Source: a virus. Taken from it: 30,798 bases of DNA. The DNA lies in IMG/VR virus record IMGVR_UViG_3300046007_001868, positions 1 through 30,798 of that record; one strand, 5' to 3'. The notes beneath the pieces are model-generated. The model saw only the letters and a program-made list of their open reading frames with translations, did not search any database and was not told the DNA's origin. Numbering within the stretch: the stretch's first letter is position 1; each line of letters starts with the position of its first letter. The position numbers and the translations under genes were made by a program. Below are positions 1,286 to 30,798 of the stretch, piece by piece.

Positions 1286-1300
1286 GATTGTTAAATTACA
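1286..1300 (+). promoter_or_regulatory. ATTGTTAAATT motif, candidate late promoter or leader element
   Basis: The 11-mer ATTGTTAAATT at 1287-1297 lies between a strong terminator and the first gene of the portal operon, where a promoter is needed. The same 11-mer precedes the genes at 10849, 27996 and 29970. Its role as a promoter is inferred. Confidence 0.4.
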
Positions 1301-4472: not shown

Positions 4473-4521
4473 CATCCGATATATTTCCCTATAAATTGGT
4501 TAAAATAAAAAGCATTCTTAT

Positions 4522-8405: not shown

Positions 8406-10823
8406 ATGGCAGAGAATACAACCACATATACGGCGGTAATTGATACTCAGGTTAACGGAGGTGAGGAAGTAAAAGGACTAGGAGATGAGGCGCAAGAGAC
8501 CGGTGGTAAATTTAAAGCACTTCGTTCTCAAATCAGAGAAACCAACGTTGCTTTACAAAAGTTAGCCGATGAGGGTAAGCAAGGAACTGCAGAATTTGAA
8601 ACTCTAAGAGCAAAGTTAGATGAATTAAACGATGCGCAAGAGAAAGTAAATTTCCAAGCAGGTCAGTTTGATGACCAATTAGCAGCTTTGCCTGGCCCAT
8701 TAGGACAGTTAGGTGGTGGTATCCAAAGTTTTAATGCCGGATTAAATAAATTCTCTACTGGATTTAAAGTAGCATTAGGTGCTATAGGATTAATCATTGG
8801 TGCTATCGCAGCATTTAGAGAATCATTAAGTAGAACTGAAGAAGGACAAGCTAAGTTAAATAAGATAACCGAAGCATTCGAAAAAATAATGAACGGACTA
8901 TTCGCAGTAATAGAACCCGTTGCTATGATGTTTGCTGATTTAGTTGTTGCTTTATTAGAGAATGATAAGGTAATGAAAGTTCTTTCTACAACAATGGGAG
9001 TTCTATCAGGCACATTTAGTGCTGTATTAGGTGTTGGTAAGGAGTTAGCAGGATTTGTGATAAATAACCTTGTAAACGCATTTAAAACGCTTGTAGGGGT
9101 TGCCGGTGGGGCTGGTAAGGTTCTTAAAGGAGTGTTCACATTTGATTTAGAACTTATCAAAGAAGGTGTATCGCAAGTTGGTGAGACTGTAAAAACAGGT
9201 GTAACTTCATTTGTAGATAATGTTAAGAATACTGCAAAAGGAATTGGAACTGCCGTAGTTAATGGAGTTAAAACAGGATTTGAAGCAGGTTCTAAATCAT
9301 TTACTGAAGGAAGTAAAAGATTAACCGAAGCTGAAAAGAAAGCAGCTGAAGAAGCTAAAAAGAAAAGAGAAGAGAATGCAGCTAAACGAAAAGAAGAAGA
9401 TAAGAAACTTGCTGAACAAAGAAAGAAAGATATTGAAGCAGCTGGAAAGATTGAAACCGAAGCTTATCTATCTACATTAGAAGCAAGAGATAAAGAGATA
9501 TTCAAAAGAGGAGAGAAGTTAAATACTGATTTAGAAGTATTAGAAAAAGGTAGACAAGCTAAGATTGCTGAAGCAAGAAAGAATGGTAATTTAGATTTAG
9601 CTAAAATAGATGATGATTTTAATAGAAGTAGATTAGCAGTTCAGAACGCATACAATTTAGATGTAACGGCAATCAATACTAAGTTTGATGAGGAAGAGAA
9701 AAAGAAGGAAGAAGAAAAGAAACAAAAAGCATTAGAAACTGCTAAGTTACTTTATGATGAAGCAGTATTAGCAAATGAGAATCGTTCTCAATTAATAGAG
9801 CAAAGATACAATAGAGAAATTGCTTTAGTAAATGAGAAGGAAAAGATGATGTTATCTGCTGAAGGCCTTTCCGAAGAACAAAGAAGGATAATCAGAGAAA
9901 CTGCAGCTAACGAAAGATTAAATGCACAAACTGCAAGATACGATGAGTTGATTGCAGTAGTGGATGAGAAAGAGAAAATAGCACTTTCTAATACGGAACT
10001 AACTGAAGCTCAACGAACTAAGATTGTTTTAGATGCAACTAAAGAAAGACAATCAATAGAACAAACTCGTAGAGATGATGAGTTGTTAGGTATTGATAAT
10101 GAATTAGCTAACTTAGCAACTACGTTTGATAGAAGAAGAGAATTAATCGCTCAGAAAGAAGCTGAGTTATTAGCACAAGAAGGTTTAACACAAAACCAAA
10201 GAACTCAAATTGCTCAAACTGCAGCTAACGAAAGACAAGCTATTGATATGGCTGAGTTAGAAGCTAAGGCTGATTTACAAAATGCTTATTTAGATTTGGC
10301 AAGTGGATTTGCTTCTTTCTTAAAAGATATTGCAGGTAAGAATAAGAAGGTTGCTATAGCAGGTGTGATTGTAGAACAGGCAGCAGCGATTGGTAAGATT
10401 GTGGTTAATACAGGTATTGCAAATGCGAAAGCCCTTGCAGCATCTCCGATAACATTCGGACAACCCTGGATTGCCATAAATACGATTAGTGCAGGTTTAA
10501 GTATAGCAGCATCAGTTGCGGCTGGAATAAAAGCAATTCAACAAATTAACGCATCAGATAGTGGTAGTCCTGCTACCGCAACTTCAGCTCCGAGAGCTGC
10601 AAGTGGAGCAGCACCTAAACCACCAACTGCAGGAGGAGGTCCTACTACAATTCCACAAATAGTTGGAACTGCAGGTCAGGCAACACCAGGTCAGCAGATT
10701 GCGCAAACCTTAGCAGCTAGAACTGATAAACCTATAAAAGCATACGTTGTAAGTGGTGATGTAACCTCTCAGCAAGCATTAGATAGAAGAACAACAAGAG
10801 CAGCTACCTTTAGTGGTGGATAA
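8406..10823 (+). CDS. Tape measure protein
   Basis: The 805-residue product has the usual tape measure layout. An N-terminal charged region is followed by small-residue hydrophobic helices (VALGAIGLIIGAIAAF at about 123-138, then others to about 235) and a long Lys/Glu/Ala coiled coil (about 300-640). A second hydrophobic section (AIAGVIVEQAAAIGKIVV) comes next, and then a Ser/Pro/Gly-rich tail. The protein sets tail length by spanning the tube lumen and is ejected ahead of the DNA. Using the usual 0.15 nm per residue, it predicts a tail of roughly 120 nm, consistent with a siphovirus. The coiled coil contains three related repeats (residues 479 to about 617). No muramidase or peptidase domain was seen. 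Confidence 0.9.
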   Translation: MAENTTTYTAVIDTQVNGGEEVKGLGDEAQETGGKFKALRSQIRETNVALQKLADEGKQGTAEFETLRAKLDELNDAQEKVNFQAGQFDDQLAALPGPLGQLGGGIQSFNAGLNKFSTGFKVALGAIGLIIGAIAAFRESLSRTEEGQAKLNKITEAFEKIMNGLFAVIEPVAMMFADLVVALLENDKVMKVLSTTMGVLSGTFSAVLGVGKELAGFVINNLVNAFKTLVGVAGGAGKVLKGVFTFDLELIKEGVSQVGETVKTGVTSFVDNVKNTAKGIGTAVVNGVKTGFEAGSKSFTEGSKRLTEAEKKAAEEAKKKREENAAKRKEEDKKLAEQRKKDIEAAGKIETEAYLSTLEARDKEIFKRGEKLNTDLEVLEKGRQAKIAEARKNGNLDLAKIDDDFNRSRLAVQNAYNLDVTAINTKFDEEEKKKEEEKKQKALETAKLLYDEAVLANENRSQLIEQRYNREIALVNEKEKMMLSAEGLSEEQRRIIRETAANERLNAQTARYDELIAVVDEKEKIALSNTELTEAQRTKIVLDATKERQSIEQTRRDDELLGIDNELANLATTFDRRRELIAQKEAELLAQEGLTQNQRTQIAQTAANERQAIDMAELEAKADLQNAYLDLASGFASFLKDIAGKNKKVAIAGVIVEQAAAIGKIVVNTGIANAKALAASPITFGQPWIAINTISAGLSIAASVAAGIKAIQQINASDSGSPATATSAPRAASGAAPKPPTAGGGPTTIPQIVGTAGQATPGQQIAQTLAARTDKPIKAYVVSGDVTSQQALDRRTTRAATFSGG
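9840..10256 (+). repeat. Three diverged repeats in the tape measure coiled coil
   Basis: A unit of about 33 residues occurs three times, starting at residues 479, 523 and 585. The shared core reads as EGLSEEQRRII, ELTEAQRTKIV and EGLTQNQRTQI, each followed by an A/T-A-x-E/K-R stretch (TAANER, DATKER, TAANER). Unit spacings are 44 and 62 residues. Stepwise duplication or loss of such units is a plausible way to change tail length. Confidence 0.7.
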
Positions 10824-10833
10824 TTTTAAAAGT

Positions 10834-10847
10834 AATTGTTAAATTAA
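10834..10847 (+). promoter_or_regulatory. ATTGTTAAATT motif before the protease fusion gene
   Basis: AATTGTTAAATTAA ends one base before the ATG at 10849, in the 25-bp gap after the tape measure gene. The core 11-mer is shared with three other intergenic sites in the late region. So close to the start codon it might act as a translation leader element rather than a promoter. Confidence 0.35.
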
Positions 10848-12665: not shown

Positions 12666-12980
12666 ATGAAAAATTCATTCTTTAAACATTTACACGAATT
12701 TGCCGAAAGAACGGAAATCTCTCAATCACAAATGAGAGCAATGACACTTACAGGTGTTCCGTTTCGTATATACGCATCTAAGTTAGATGGTAGCAATATT
12801 GTAAGAGATATGTATTCCGTTGATGGACCAGGTGGTAGAGCAATGGGTGGAACTATCTATTGGAGAGCACCATACAACTATATGATTTACTTTTCAGAAA
12901 CCGATGGTGATTTTAGAACTATCGTATTAAGAAATGTAACAAAGATAGTGCAGAATGGTAGAAGTTACTTAGTTAACTAA
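12666..12980 (+). CDS. Hypothetical protein (104 aa)
   Basis: A 104-residue protein with a short helical start and a beta-rich remainder (VPFRIYASKLDGSNIVRDMY, then GGTIYWRAPYNYMIYF). No family is recognised. Its ATG overlaps the TGA of an 11-codon frame (12634-12669) that starts directly after the protease stop codon, which might couple its translation. Its stop overlaps the stop of the reverse-strand sigma gene, so it ends the rightward late operon of head and tail genes. Confidence 0.7.
   Translation: MKNSFFKHLHEFAERTEISQSQMRAMTLTGVPFRIYASKLDGSNIVRDMYSVDGPGGRAMGGTIYWRAPYNYMIYFSETDGDFRTIVLRNVTKIVQNGRSYLVN
12969..12980. other. Palindrome at convergent gene ends
   Basis: TTAGTTAACTAA is a perfect 12-bp palindrome that contains the TAA stop of the rightward gene (12978-12980) and the TAG stop of the leftward sigma gene (complement of 12977-12979). 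The genes overlap tail to tail with no bidirectional terminator hairpin, so the transcripts must run into each other. Confidence 0.6.
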
Positions 12981-13798
12981 TAGATTCCTTTATTCTGCTT
13001 ATATCTATAATAGTCTCTTTTATATTTAGGTAATCCCCCACCATGTAATTCTTTAATTCCAGGAACTCTACTAAGATTTTCAGACATCGGTCTAGGTGTG
13101 ATTGGTATTGGATTTACAATACCCTCATCCCATTCTTTAATAAAGTGTAGGTATTGTTCGTAAATGAAAGCCCTTGCATAACGGGTCATTGTATCCTTTG
13201 ATTCAGGGTATTTTTCTTTAAACTTCTCAGCAACTCTTAACTTTAGATAATCGGTTACTTCATCAAAGTTATCCATAAAATCTAATACCCAAAACATGTG
13301 CACTTTTATTTTCCTTGGATAGTATATGTTAGGTAAGTGCATTAGAAACCATTCTCTGAAAGCATAGTATCTTTCAATAAACATATTGGAATACTCATCC
13401 TGCGCAATCGTTTCATCTATACCATCTACACCTTCTAATGGTTCAAATCCTCTATTAGATTTAGCTTTAGCATATCCCTTCATATTAAGTTGCATAAAGA
13501 AGAACTTAGCTGATACTGAAAAGTATGAGTATGCTTTACCTGAAGCGGGATTAAACTTAAATATTGCGGATGTCATTAAGTGTGCAAGGCAATCATTAAT
13601 TCTATCTTCTAAACACTCTTCTACATAAGAGTGGTCTATTTTATTAGCATAAATCTCACATATCTTTTTTATAGGAATATATAAGTGGTTATTAAAGATA
13701 CGATTTCGTTCTCTATCCCCTTCAGCATTTTGATAATCAACTACTGCTTTATCCGTTTCTTCGGTAAAATAATTACTACTCTTTTTTGGTCTCCCCAT
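12977..13798 (-). CDS. Late-transcription sigma factor (T4 gp55-like)
   Basis: This is the only convincing gene on the reverse strand. The 273-residue product starts MGRPKKSSNYFTEETDKAV. The region from residue 28 to 110 resembles sigma region 2 of gp55-like phage late sigma factors, with FNPASGKAYSYFSVSAKFF (82-100) as the strongest match. The C-terminal third (about 170-273) is charged and could hold the parts that replace domain 4. Such factors bind host core RNA polymerase and direct it to phage late promoters. A host-type promoter lies at 13865-13896, so it can be made before late transcription starts. The gene is oriented against both neighbouring blocks and sits where the late and early halves meet. 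I do not see co-activator (gp33) or clamp (gp45) genes. Confidence 0.8.
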   Translation of the reverse strand: MGRPKKSSNYFTEETDKAVVDYQNAEGDRERNRIFNNHLYIPIKKICEIYANKIDHSYVEECLEDRINDCLAHLMTSAIFKFNPASGKAYSYFSVSAKFFFMQLNMKGYAKAKSNRGFEPLEGVDGIDETIAQDEYSNMFIERYYAFREWFLMHLPNIYYPRKIKVHMFWVLDFMDNFDEVTDYLKLRVAEKFKEKYPESKDTMTRYARAFIYEQYLHFIKEWDEGIVNPIPITPRPMSENLSRVPGIKELHGGGLPKYKRDYYRYKQNKGIY

Positions 13799-13864
13799 AA
13801 CTTTTTAATCTATATAGTTTAACAATCGTATAAACTTTTTTACCCTATCGTTGTTATAATTATG

Positions 13865-13896
13865 TAAAGATACGAAATAATTTTCAATTAAACAAA
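13865..13896 (-). promoter_or_regulatory. Bacteroidetes-type promoter for the late sigma gene
   Basis: Read on the reverse strand: TTTG (complement of 13893-13896), exactly 20 bp, then TATCTTTA (complement of 13865-13872). The Bacteroidetes primary sigma consensus is TTTG, 19-21 bp, TAnnTTTG, so only the last base differs. It lies about 67 bp upstream of the sigma ATG and shares the string TTTCGTATCTTT with the promoter at 17476-17507. Confidence 0.7.
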
Positions 13897-17277: not shown

Positions 17278-17494
17278 AAAGATTATATTCACTATATTAG
17301 ATAAAGAACCTGAAAGAGTAACTGAAGCAGAATTACAATTTCTATTTCAGCATCTAACATACGAATTATTAGAAAAGTATCAGAAGCTAACAGGTCAAGC
17401 TATCTTTATAGATGGTTTCAATTCTGAAGAAGTTATTAATGTTTCAGTATTAGATTTAATAAATCTTATAAAAGATTTGGAAAATACAAATTAA
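17261..17494 (+). CDS. Hypothetical protein (77 aa)
   Basis: I choose ATG 17261, which overlaps the previous gene by 17 bases; an in-frame ATG at 17219 would lie deeper inside that gene. The 77-residue product is helical and charged (ITEAELQ-like segment RVTEAELQFLFQHLTYELLE) with an acidic end. No family recognised. Its last codons contain the TTTG box of the next promoter. Confidence 0.6.
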   Translation: MKKEIKKIIFTILDKEPERVTEAELQFLFQHLTYELLEKYQKLTGQAIFIDGFNSEEVINVSVLDLINLIKDLENTN

Positions 17495-17507
17495 TTTCGT
17501 ATCTTTG
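17476..17507 (+). promoter_or_regulatory. Bacteroidetes primary-sigma promoter
   Basis: TTTG (17476-17479), exactly 20 bp, then TATCTTTG (17500-17507): a full match to the Bacteroidetes consensus TTTG, 19-21 bp, TAnnTTTG. Transcription should start near 17513-17516, about 25 bases before a terminator hairpin. This is the clearest host-range signal in the window. Confidence 0.85.
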
Positions 17508-18192: not shown

Positions 18193-18447
18193 ATGGAAGA
18201 AATAAAACCAAACTTACCAGAGAGTAAATACGCTCCCTTAAACTTAGCAGAGTTTCAAGAACTAAGTGGCCACTTAGCATCAATACAACATCACTTACCA
18301 GAACACCTAATGAATCCATTTTGGAGATGGTGTAATGTCATCAGAGGTGAAAGAGTTAATCAGCCATGTAGCTGTAGAAGTTCAGCTAAACATTGGGGAA
18401 ACTGCGTTACTACTTTAAGAGATTTTGTAAAGAGTAAAGGTGAATAA
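18193..18447 (+). CDS. Hypothetical protein with CSC motif (84 aa)
   Basis: I choose ATG 18193, one base after the previous stop; the open frame extends upstream into that gene. The 84-residue product has a conserved-looking core, MNPFWRWCNVIRGERVNQPC, followed by SCRSSAKHWGNC. I recall similar proteins next to sigma-like genes in Bacteroidetes phages. Four cysteines (WCN, PCSC, NCV) could bind zinc. It may be a partner or regulator of the next gene, whose GTG start overlaps its last codons. Confidence 0.65.
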   Translation: MEEIKPNLPESKYAPLNLAEFQELSGHLASIQHHLPEHLMNPFWRWCNVIRGERVNQPCSCRSSAKHWGNCVTTLRDFVKSKGE

Positions 18448-19006
18448 ACTGCAAGAGGAAAATAGAGAACGATTGAATAACCTTTGTAGAGATTCACACA
18501 AATGGCTATTAGGTGCGGCATACAAGATTACTAAGAATTTGGATATCAGTAATGAACTTATTGGTGACTTGTATCTATACTTAGCAGAAAAGATAAACCC
18601 ATCTATATGGTTTGATGGGGAAGATGGTAAAAAGACTTTTAACCTCCTTTACCTAAGAGCATTCCTTAAAACTCGTTTCCTTAATAGAATTAAATCATCA
18701 AAGAAAACGATAGAATTTAAACCCGAATACTATGATGCCATACATACGGAATACGATATAGAGTTTGATGAAAGAGTAGAAGCATCTTATAATGAGATGT
18801 TAACCGAACTAAGGGATTTAAGTAGGACAAGGTTATGGGCGCCAGCAAGATTGTTTGAACTATACGCATTTGCAGAAGATATGACATTAGATAAGTTGGC
18901 AAAGGAAATAGGTATCTGCCGTTCAACCGCATTTGGAAATACAAAGAAGATTAAACTACATTTAAGAGAGAAGATTACTAATCCTTTTAAAGCACCATTG
19001 GACTAA
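18440..19006 (+). CDS. Sigma-70-like transcription regulator
   Basis: A 188-residue protein that starts at GTG 18440, overlapping the previous stop by 8 bases; no ATG start fits better. Residues 12-85 resemble sigma region 2 (YKITKNLDISNELIGDLYLY, then FLKTRFLNRIKS). Residues 135-180 hold a region-4-like helix-turn-helix (MTLDKLAKEIGICRSTAFGN). It lies just before the terminase genes. It may direct middle or late transcription together with, or before, the gp55-like factor, or act as an activator. Of the two sigma-like proteins, this one looks more like a small ECF-type factor. Confidence 0.65.
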   Translation: MNKLQEENRERLNNLCRDSHKWLLGAAYKITKNLDISNELIGDLYLYLAEKINPSIWFDGEDGKKTFNLLYLRAFLKTRFLNRIKSSKKTIEFKPEYYDAIHTEYDIEFDERVEASYNEMLTELRDLSRTRLWAPARLFELYAFAEDMTLDKLAKEIGICRSTAFGNTKKIKLHLREKITNPFKAPLD

Positions 19007-22186: not shown

Positions 22187-22245
22187 CATTATGTTATATT
22201 TCCTTTTTGCTTTGTTATATTAGTAATATTATAAAACATTAATCC

Positions 22246-27173: not shown

Positions 27174-27953
27174 ATGAATCAATTTTTTGTAGGAAATACT
27201 TTAATCAACGATGCTTACTTAGGCTCTATAAGAGTAGAAGATTTAATTGCTCAACAACAGGCAATTGTAATTGAATACTTAGTAGTAGCAGGTGGTGGTA
27301 ATGGTGGACAAGGAGTTGATGGTGGTGGCGGTTCAAGCCAAGGTGGTGGCGGTGGTGCTGGTGGATATCAGACTGGAAGTGCAGTAATAAAACCATATGA
27401 AACAACGCTAACTGCTATAGTTGGTAGTGGTGGTATATACACAGGTGATGCAGCTAAAAATTCATCTTTAATTGGAACAGGTGTTTCACTTACATCAACA
27501 GCAGGTGGTAGAGGTGGTGACTCAGCTGGAAACGGTGGAAACGGCGGTTCAGGTGGTGGAGCTGGTAGAGGAGGCTCACCTGGAACAGGTATAGCAGGAC
27601 AAGGATTTGGTGGTGGAGTAGGTAGTAACGTAACTAATGGTAGAGCCGGTGGAGGTGGAGGTGGTGCTTCAGGCGCAGGTTCAATAATTAGTAACCAAAC
27701 ATACGCAGGACTAGGGGCCACATGGTTAGATGGAACTACTTATGCAGCTGGTGGTAGAGGACAAAATGGTGTAGTAGGAGCTAATGGTGGAGTGAATACA
27801 GGTAATGGTGCAACTGCAGAACAAAATGGTGGTAGTGGTATTGTTAAAATAAGATATGTAGGAACTCCTATAGCAAGTGGAGGAACAATAACTCAAAGTG
27901 GTGGATATACTTATCATACATTTACATCTGGCACAGGTTCATTTACTTACTAA
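27174..27953 (+). CDS. Glycine-rich adhesin (tail fibre tip protein)
   Basis: A 259-residue protein. After a short head, residues 35-200 contain many runs of glycine (VAGGGNGGQGVDGGGGSSQG and others), like the polyglycine sandwich of T-even gp38-type adhesins. The C-terminal 45 residues (GSGIVKIRYVGTPIASGG, then YTYHTFTSGTGSF) form a domain that I recall ending many marine phage adhesins. It should sit on a fibre tip and decide receptor choice. The gene at 28295 looks like a larger paralogue. Confidence 0.72.
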   Translation: MNQFFVGNTLINDAYLGSIRVEDLIAQQQAIVIEYLVVAGGGNGGQGVDGGGGSSQGGGGGAGGYQTGSAVIKPYETTLTAIVGSGGIYTGDAAKNSSLIGTGVSLTSTAGGRGGDSAGNGGNGGSGGGAGRGGSPGTGIAGQGFGGGVGSNVTNGRAGGGGGGASGAGSIISNQTYAGLGATWLDGTTYAAGGRGQNGVVGANGGVNTGNGATAEQNGGSGIVKIRYVGTPIASGGTITQSGGYTYHTFTSGTGSFTY

Positions 27954-27965
27954 AAACACAAACTT

Positions 27966-27980
27966 AATTGTTAAATTTAA
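27966..27980 (+). promoter_or_regulatory. ATTGTTAAATT motif before the 93-aa structural gene
   Basis: AATTGTTAAATTTAA lies 15 bp before the ATG at 27996. It shares the 11-mer with the sites at 1287, 10835 and 29943, and downstream it has the leader word AAAATATTATG, as at 29970. Confidence 0.4.
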
Positions 27981-29917: not shown

Positions 29918-29941
29918 AAAAATTACTATAAATTAAAAACC

Positions 29942-29955
29942 AATTGTTAAATTAA
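29942..29955 (+). promoter_or_regulatory. ATTGTTAAATT motif before the scaffold gene
   Basis: AATTGTTAAATTAA is identical over 14 bases to the site at 10834-10847 and lies 14 bp before the scaffold ATG, in a position to drive scaffold and capsid expression. Confidence 0.42.
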
Positions 29956-30661: not shown

Positions 30662-30798
30662 ATGAGACAACAACAAAATTTCGCACAACCAAGTGTAACT
30701 TCAACTTACGCTGGTGAATTTGCTGGGAAATACATCGCAGCAGCGTTGTTATCTGCTAGAACTTTGGACAACAAATATATCACAATCGTTCCGAATCC
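30662..30798 (+). CDS. Major capsid protein, N-terminal part (3' end outside window)
   Basis: The gene starts at ATG 30662, 26 bases after the scaffold stop codon, and runs off the end of the window after 45 codons and two bases. The product begins MRQQQNFAQPSVTSTYAGEF and continues with AGKYIAAALL and ITIVPN, the typical start of the capsid family whose C-terminal part is at 2-574. Joining the window ends keeps the reading frame. The segment AQPSVTSTYAGE recurs with one change in the protease fusion protein. Confidence 0.85.
   Translation, partial: MRQQQNFAQPSVTSTYAGEFAGKYIAAALLSARTLDNKYITIVPN

Follow-up and report, generated by a model that had tools for sequence, protein, structure and literature searches.

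The 11-nucleotide sequence ATTGTTAAATT is repeated in the window (here the whole stretch of viral DNA that we analysed, 30,798 nucleotides long) next to genes of the head, tail and packaging kinds, which raises the question of whether it is read by a sigma factor, and if so by which one, or is a signal of another sort. The first-pass annotation had placed it at four positions before late genes and offered two readings, a late promoter box of the phage sigma factor or a translation-enhancing leader. We recovered four exact copies, all on the + strand (1287, 10835, 27967 and 29943), where 0.09 would be expected and where none of 100 dinucleotide shuffles gave four. Each sits in a short gap 5' of an open reading frame of late type, with 29, 3, 18 and 16 nt respectively to the ATG (ATGs at 1327, 10849, 27996 and 29970). 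The copy at 1287 does follow a strong intrinsic terminator, as had been noticed, and the related ATTGTTAAACT is indeed found on the other strand at 13816–13826, with the ATG of a sigma-like gene (12977–13798) 17 nt further on.

The genes of the window include those for a portal (1694), a tape measure (8406), an XkdF-type protease (10849) and a large terminase (19370), and no Rfam element was found in it. A capsid-like gene, so called from its position and its relatives, continues in frame from one end of the record into the other (30662–30798 and 1–574), and the record is therefore a circular or permuted complete genome. We note that a strong hairpin at 588–610 (AGGGAGGT...ACCTCCCT), with a terminator score on the − strand, lies between the capsid gene and g661 and may end the capsid transcript.

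The 11-mer is real as a repeat but is not the unit that is conserved. When the window was compared with 159 related contigs (gathered by terminase and portal searches, with genes called mechanically for the counts of site placement), the outer letters proved variable and the conserved core was TTGTT followed by four A/T-rich letters, in the form TTGTTAAAT in the lineage of the window. This core, referred to here as box 2, forms the right-hand part of a bipartite element, the left-hand part being box 1 (TnACTAYWWTT), which starts 21 nt upstream and had been missed in the first-pass annotation. With the aligned sites weighted by sequence cluster (28 clusters), the upstream block spans −21 to −11, counted from the opening T of TTGTTAAAT, and reads T-N-A-C/T-T/A-A-C/T-W-W-T-T, there is no conservation between the two boxes up to a purine at −1, and box 2 is followed by A at +13 to +15 (frequencies of 0.78, 0.74 and 0.61). 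In a leave-one-cluster-out test of the spacing, in which the modal best position of box 1 among 41 candidate shifts was taken for each held-out cluster, 20 of the 28 clusters peaked at exactly the expected position (p about 1e-26 against uniform choice among the shifts). Across the window and the 159 contigs, intergenic copies of TTGTTAAAT number 150 on the late strand versus 10 on the other, with 10 and 29 respectively inside genes, and the mirror image of TTGTTAAAT occurs seven times between genes on each strand. The sites thus have two boxes at constant spacing, lie 5' of genes and keep one orientation, as the promoters of a sigma factor with two contacts do.

The sites in the window, and the terminator that precedes one of them, are as follows.

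1236 to 1264, + strand: intrinsic terminator directly 5' of the g1327 promoter (hairpin 1236–1259 plus a T run)
1267 to 1277, + strand: box 1 (−35-like) of the putative g1327 promoter, CTACTACTTTT (bipartite PWM score 25.8)
1288 to 1296, + strand: box 2 (−10-like) of the same promoter, TTGTTAAAT, with a predicted start at about 1301
4476 to 4505, + strand: degenerate promoter of g4522, box 1 CCGATATATTT and box 2 TGGTTAAAA (score 10.7)
10815 to 10844, + strand: putative protease-gene promoter, weak box 1 GGTGGATAATT and box 2 TTGTTAAAT at 10836–10844
13816 to 13826, − strand: ATTGTTAAACT 5' of the gp55-like sigma gene, with no good box 1 in the window phage
22191 to 22220, + strand: degenerate promoter of g22246, box 1 ATGTTATATTT and box 2 TTGTTATAT (score 8.8)
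27947 to 27976, + strand: putative promoter of g27996, box 1 TTACTAAAAAC and box 2 TTGTTAAAT at 27968–27976 (score 22.1)
29923 to 29952, + strand: putative promoter of g29970, box 1 TTACTATAAAT and box 2 TTGTTAAAT at 29944–29952 (score 25.0)

The score of the g1327 site compares with shuffle maxima of 8.4–14.3, and 54 of 55 g1327 orthologues have a terminator some 30 nt 5' of box 2, compared with 21 of 55 after shuffling; an element that follows at once upon a terminator looks like a new start of transcription. At the protease-gene site, box 1 overlaps the tape-measure gene at its end and box 2 stops 4 nt short of the ATG. The gene g29970 is acidic and scaffold-like and lies 5' of capsid. The motif search across relatives that had been proposed as a check showed the pair recurring at orthologous late genes. 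We scanned the regions 5' of the orthologues of all 39 window genes and counted a pair when it scored above 10, a level of 10 that none of the shuffled upstream regions attained. The pair is present before all 24 orthologues of g27996 and before 78% of those of g4522, 74% of g1327, 70% of g29970 and 49% of g22246, as well as before about 28–64% of the orthologues of terS, of the gp55-like gene and of its divergent neighbour g13902. The gp55-like gene of relatives has TTGTTAAAT or TTGTTATAA at 13–20 nt 5' of it, and the protease orthologues have the pair in 3 and box 2 in 9 of 10 cases. In the same scan the pair was nearly absent before capsid (1 of 61 orthologues) and was not found before portal (0 of 78), g3001, g3526, g5684, terL, g20547, g21420, g22516 or sigB (introduced below). 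The genes that have the pair are on this evidence the putative heads of late operons, where the label 'late' rests on gene content.

In more distant relatives represented by larger records the same genes keep the element, with the four final letters of box 2 altered in step. Five late genes of G010 have TTTTA tails, and this genome uses TTGTTTTTA throughout; the tails of G008, G016 and G022 are ATTT/ATAT, and those of G001 are mostly AAGT/AAAG, whereas the form of box 1 stays constant. The likeness of tails between gene families is 0.77 within a genome versus 0.62 between genomes, and 0.80 versus 0.60 when each lineage is reduced to one representative; neither difference was reached in any of 2000 permutations. 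Since the promoters of unrelated genes change together, a single diffusible protein acting in trans reads them all. We consider this concerted re-coding the part of the analysis most worth following. The variants TTGTTAAAT, TTGTTATTT, TTGTTAAGT and TTGTTTTTA, in an otherwise constant promoter, provide a ready set for relating sigma residues to promoter letters. Fixed geometry, late-strand orientation, the position after a terminator, recurrence at orthologues and concerted change together support TnACTAYWWTT-N10-TTGTTAAAT-N4-A as a predicted bipartite late promoter of this family of ~30 kb phages.

Two candidate readers and a host-type promoter are encoded in the window.

12977 to 13798, − strand: gp55-like second sigma gene, sigA (tblastn and structural match)
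17477 to 17507, + strand: host-type Bacteroidota promoter TTG-N20-TATCTTTG, heading the operon that contains sigB
18440 to 19006, + strand: ECF-type sigma gene, sigB, the candidate reader of the boxes (AlphaFold2, Foldseek and domain matches)

SigB is a protein of 188 residues encoded just 5' of the terminase genes. Its AlphaFold2 model has a pLDDT of 84 and a pTM of 0.44, leaving the orientation of the domains uncertain, and its top 28 Foldseek matches are mostly ECF sigmas (best probability 1.00, with weak E-values of 0.004–0.01). Residues 3–85 match sigma2 of 1h3l_A (Z 8.4, 2.5 A, 75 aligned) and residues 111–184 match sigma4 of 2h27_D (Z 9.7, 2.2 A, 69 aligned), which is region 4 of sigmaE on −35 DNA. 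The individual Foldseek E-values are weak, and the fold call is made because both domains match the same family; the modelled layout is that of an ECF sigma, with sigma2 followed by sigma4 and neither sigma1.1 nor sigma3. Among 25 sigB members, four match Sigma70_r2 (best E 0.016), two Sigma70_r4 (0.033) and one UPF0122 (5.6e-5), and the window copy matches none of these models. We also observe that position 68, an N that is invariant in the 25-member alignment, is H in G010, the genome with TTTTA tails. SigB was found in 18 of the 20 larger records, the remaining two being fragments of 21.6 and 18.6 kb. No late-strand sites were found before the genes of five protease relatives without a sigB match (G021, G023, G025, G026 and G028), and it should be noted that this class is distantly related and that sigB E-values and box strength both drop with phylogenetic distance. 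We infer that sigB is a better candidate for the reader than the gp55-like protein, a link which is correlative but fits all records.

The promoter at 17477–17507 is the one clear intergenic promoter of host type in the window (consensus from PMC6847099) and, as it heads the sigB operon, it suggests the order host sigma, sigB, late genes. Scans of the window with sigma70-type consensus sequences gave fewer matches than shuffles did and were uninformative. Composition and this promoter make Bacteroidota the probable host phylum, and a search of genome_contigs for prophages or hosts with both portal and sigB found none.

Distant homologues of sigA occur in T4-like phages, one of them in the Flavobacterium phage immuto (28.5%, E 7e-10 by tblastn). 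Its model is modest (pLDDT 67), with T4 gp55 (7d7c_F; Z 9.7, 4.3 A, 117 aligned) topping many sigma2 matches at Foldseek E-values of 0.8 or worse, and it is predicted to have the fold of a gp55-like sigma domain 2; the C-terminus is disordered in the model, where relatives have an HTH-like segment. The phage carries two different sigma-like genes in about 31 kb, and no Pfam family or PHROG matches either of them. Between sigA and g13902 (13816–13872) there are TTGTTAWA boxes on both strands as an overlapping inverted repeat, as well as a −7 box of host type (TATCTTTG/TATCTTTA) that points towards sigA. The same layout is seen in L022, L024, L032, L037, L067 and L079, and the gap is possibly autoregulated.

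We consider it likely that the element is a late promoter of a phage ECF sigma with box 1 as the −35 and box 2 as the −10 element, the reader, this assignment, the starts and the timing being deduced. Host RNA polymerase with host sigma would start the operon at about 17500 from which the ECF-type sigma is made, and this would then bring the host polymerase to the late promoters. As sigB has sigma2 and sigma4, two contacts at a fixed spacing are expected; its sigma4 domain would touch box 1 while its sigma2 domain would melt box 2, with transcription starting about 4–7 nt 3' of box 2 on the conserved A. The boxes of E. coli sigmaE are AACTT and GTCAAA-like and are comparably spaced. The flavobacterial −7 element lies at −12 to −5 (PMC6847099), and setting box 2 positions 1–8 there makes position 13, the most conserved A, the predicted +1. 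In most relatives the ATG of the protease gene falls exactly on position 13, as does that of three other genes, and other ATGs lie at least 13 nt after box 2, with few in between. A leaderless protease mRNA would be no proof of the start site, since the distance from box 2 to this ATG is 4 nt in most orthologues, 7 in one clade and 5–6 in others; it is supportive only. The same distance implies a leaderless or nearly leaderless mRNA, which counts against the model since such mRNAs are uncommon in flavobacteria (5.5%; PMC9723704). The likeness of box 1 to a −7/−10 box (TAYWWTT) also counts against it.

This likeness allows the assignment to be turned round, with box 1 as the −10/−7 element, the start just 5' of TTGTTAAAT and box 2 as the conserved beginning of the mRNA leader. 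Box 1 does resemble both the host −7 element TAnnTTT(G) and the immuto late box TATTTATAA, and no leader, not even the one of the protease gene, would then be shorter than about 18 nt, so that all would be of normal length. We nevertheless regard this as unlikely because box 2, the far stronger element and the one re-coded in concert from lineage to lineage against a constant box 1, would be left without a reader, the aligned sites have no conserved −33 element 5' of box 1, and a distance of 22 nt between the first letter of box 1 and TGTTAAAT fits a reader with sigma2 and sigma4. The boxes might alternatively be an operator for an activator or repressor, with host sigma starting elsewhere, and box 1 is partly an inverted box 2 (A-Y-N-A-Y-W-W against TTGTTAA), most clearly so in the sigA/g13902 gap. 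This is very improbable, as the aligned sites show no host-type TAnnTTTG at a fixed distance from the boxes, the boxes keep strictly one orientation relative to genes, and those 4 nt from an ATG leave no space for a start downstream. As for the translation-enhancing leader of the first-pass annotation, boxes are always 5' of start codons and flavobacteria are without Shine-Dalgarno sequences, but the distance from box 2 to the ATG is anything but constant (4 to 42 nt), the partner box is at a fixed upstream spacing, and the capsid gene, which would need a leader most, is essentially without a box, as are portal, g3001, terL and others altogether; we find this reading scarcely credible.

The first option of the first-pass annotation, a late promoter box read by a phage sigma, is supported, although the sigma presumably meant, the gp55-like protein, is probably not the reader; the ECF-type gene, the better candidate, went unmentioned in that annotation. 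That it would read the box as T4 gp55 reads TATAAATA is suggested by its nearest solved fold, by the box that often precedes its gene, and by an early count in which exact TTGTTAAAT was present in every larger record that has sigA and scarce in several complete records that lack it. Counting exact 9-mers turned out to be a misleading test of presence, since altered box 2 tails escape it. When full records were scanned with the bipartite matrix, relatives without sigA were found to keep promoters with altered tails, and sigA was rejected as the reader: no homologue was detected at E ≤ 10 in G009, which is complete with a 123-nt direct terminal repeat, nor in several near-complete relatives, and the bipartite promoters are kept at the same genes (the keepers without sigA but with sigB being G009, G001, G008, G010, G016 and G022). 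Immuto, moreover, has a homologue of sigA without the box, and the T4-type late promoter is not evident in the window, where TATAAATA has 6 matches against 6.6 expected. Reading by the gp55-like protein is accordingly quite improbable. Three of these six matches (19063, 22499 and 30627) do lie just 5' of terS, g22516 and capsid, all without a TTGTTAAAT box, and are probably meaningless, since six is about what chance would give and the copy before capsid overlaps its upstream neighbour at that gene's conserved end.

A fuller version of the ECF-sigma reading, doubtful as a whole, is a relay of two sigmas in which the host-type promoter would yield the ECF sigma, which would serve all of the late promoters plus the box before the gp55-like sigma gene; the −10 halves would have been re-coded in concert with the ECF sigma, and the protease mRNA would lack a leader and begin at its ATG. 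Phage ECF sigmas with promoters of their own are known already (phiEco32 gp36). The literature searched, which included few subscription journals, yielded no phage-promoter paper for TTGTTAAAT and nothing on promoters of this kind in phages of Bacteroidota, nor did it describe this promoter family, its bipartite consensus or a pair of sigma genes in phages of ~31 kb. For a common group of uncultured phages in which none of these proteins is annotated, the analysis defines a late regulon and provides a sigma that is a candidate for reading it, and small ECF-type sigmas with host-orthogonal promoters would, if confirmed, be useful tools for Bacteroidota.

The closest named phages, immuto and the Nonlabens phage P12024S, have one sigma homologue each: immuto gp118 is a homologue of sigA, while P12024S gp33, annotated as 'Sigma-70 region 2', is encoded a few genes 5' of the terminase, like sigB. 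TTGTTAAAT boxes were not found in either phage, which shows only that sharing of the box does not extend to them, and immuto has a late box of its own, TATTTATAAnAAA. We note that in the immuto records (L162–L164) small genes are preceded by near-identical early promoter units of the form AGTTG-N20-TATATTTAGGTATCAATAATTAAAAC, about 25 in all, and structural genes by the separate T4-like TATTTATAAnAAA. In a further group of distant and mostly protease-only contigs (L231–L278), ATAACAAAA-N10-TTGTTTATAAAAAAAG stands about 50 nt before the protease ATG; these phages are without a sigB match (e.g. G026 and G028), and this related but distinct conserved layout is possibly the same promoter class used with another sigma.

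Among better-known systems, T4 gp55 is the best structural match of the 12977–13798 protein, but unlike in T4 its promoter sequence is at chance here and the promoters survive without the gp55-like gene. The promoters of the Bacteroidota primary sigma (TTTG/TTG at −33 and TAnnTTTG at −7) have a similar spacing of two boxes, but neither the consensus of box 2 nor its lineage variants fit TAnnTTTG, and box 1 is without TTTG. The ECF sigma gp36 of phiEco32 recognises tAATGTATAtA at 6–8 nt 5' of the starts of its middle/late promoters (PMC4281155, citing earlier work). That phage is a 77 kb-class podophage of E. coli compared with the ~31 kb genome here, and gp36 and the window sigma are unrelated at the sequence level, the window promoters differing in having a clear second box and predicted starts. 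In both phages an ECF-type sigma of the phage drives (here, would drive) a small set of its own promoters, re-using the host RNA polymerase and an A/T-rich −10-side motif with a TGT core.
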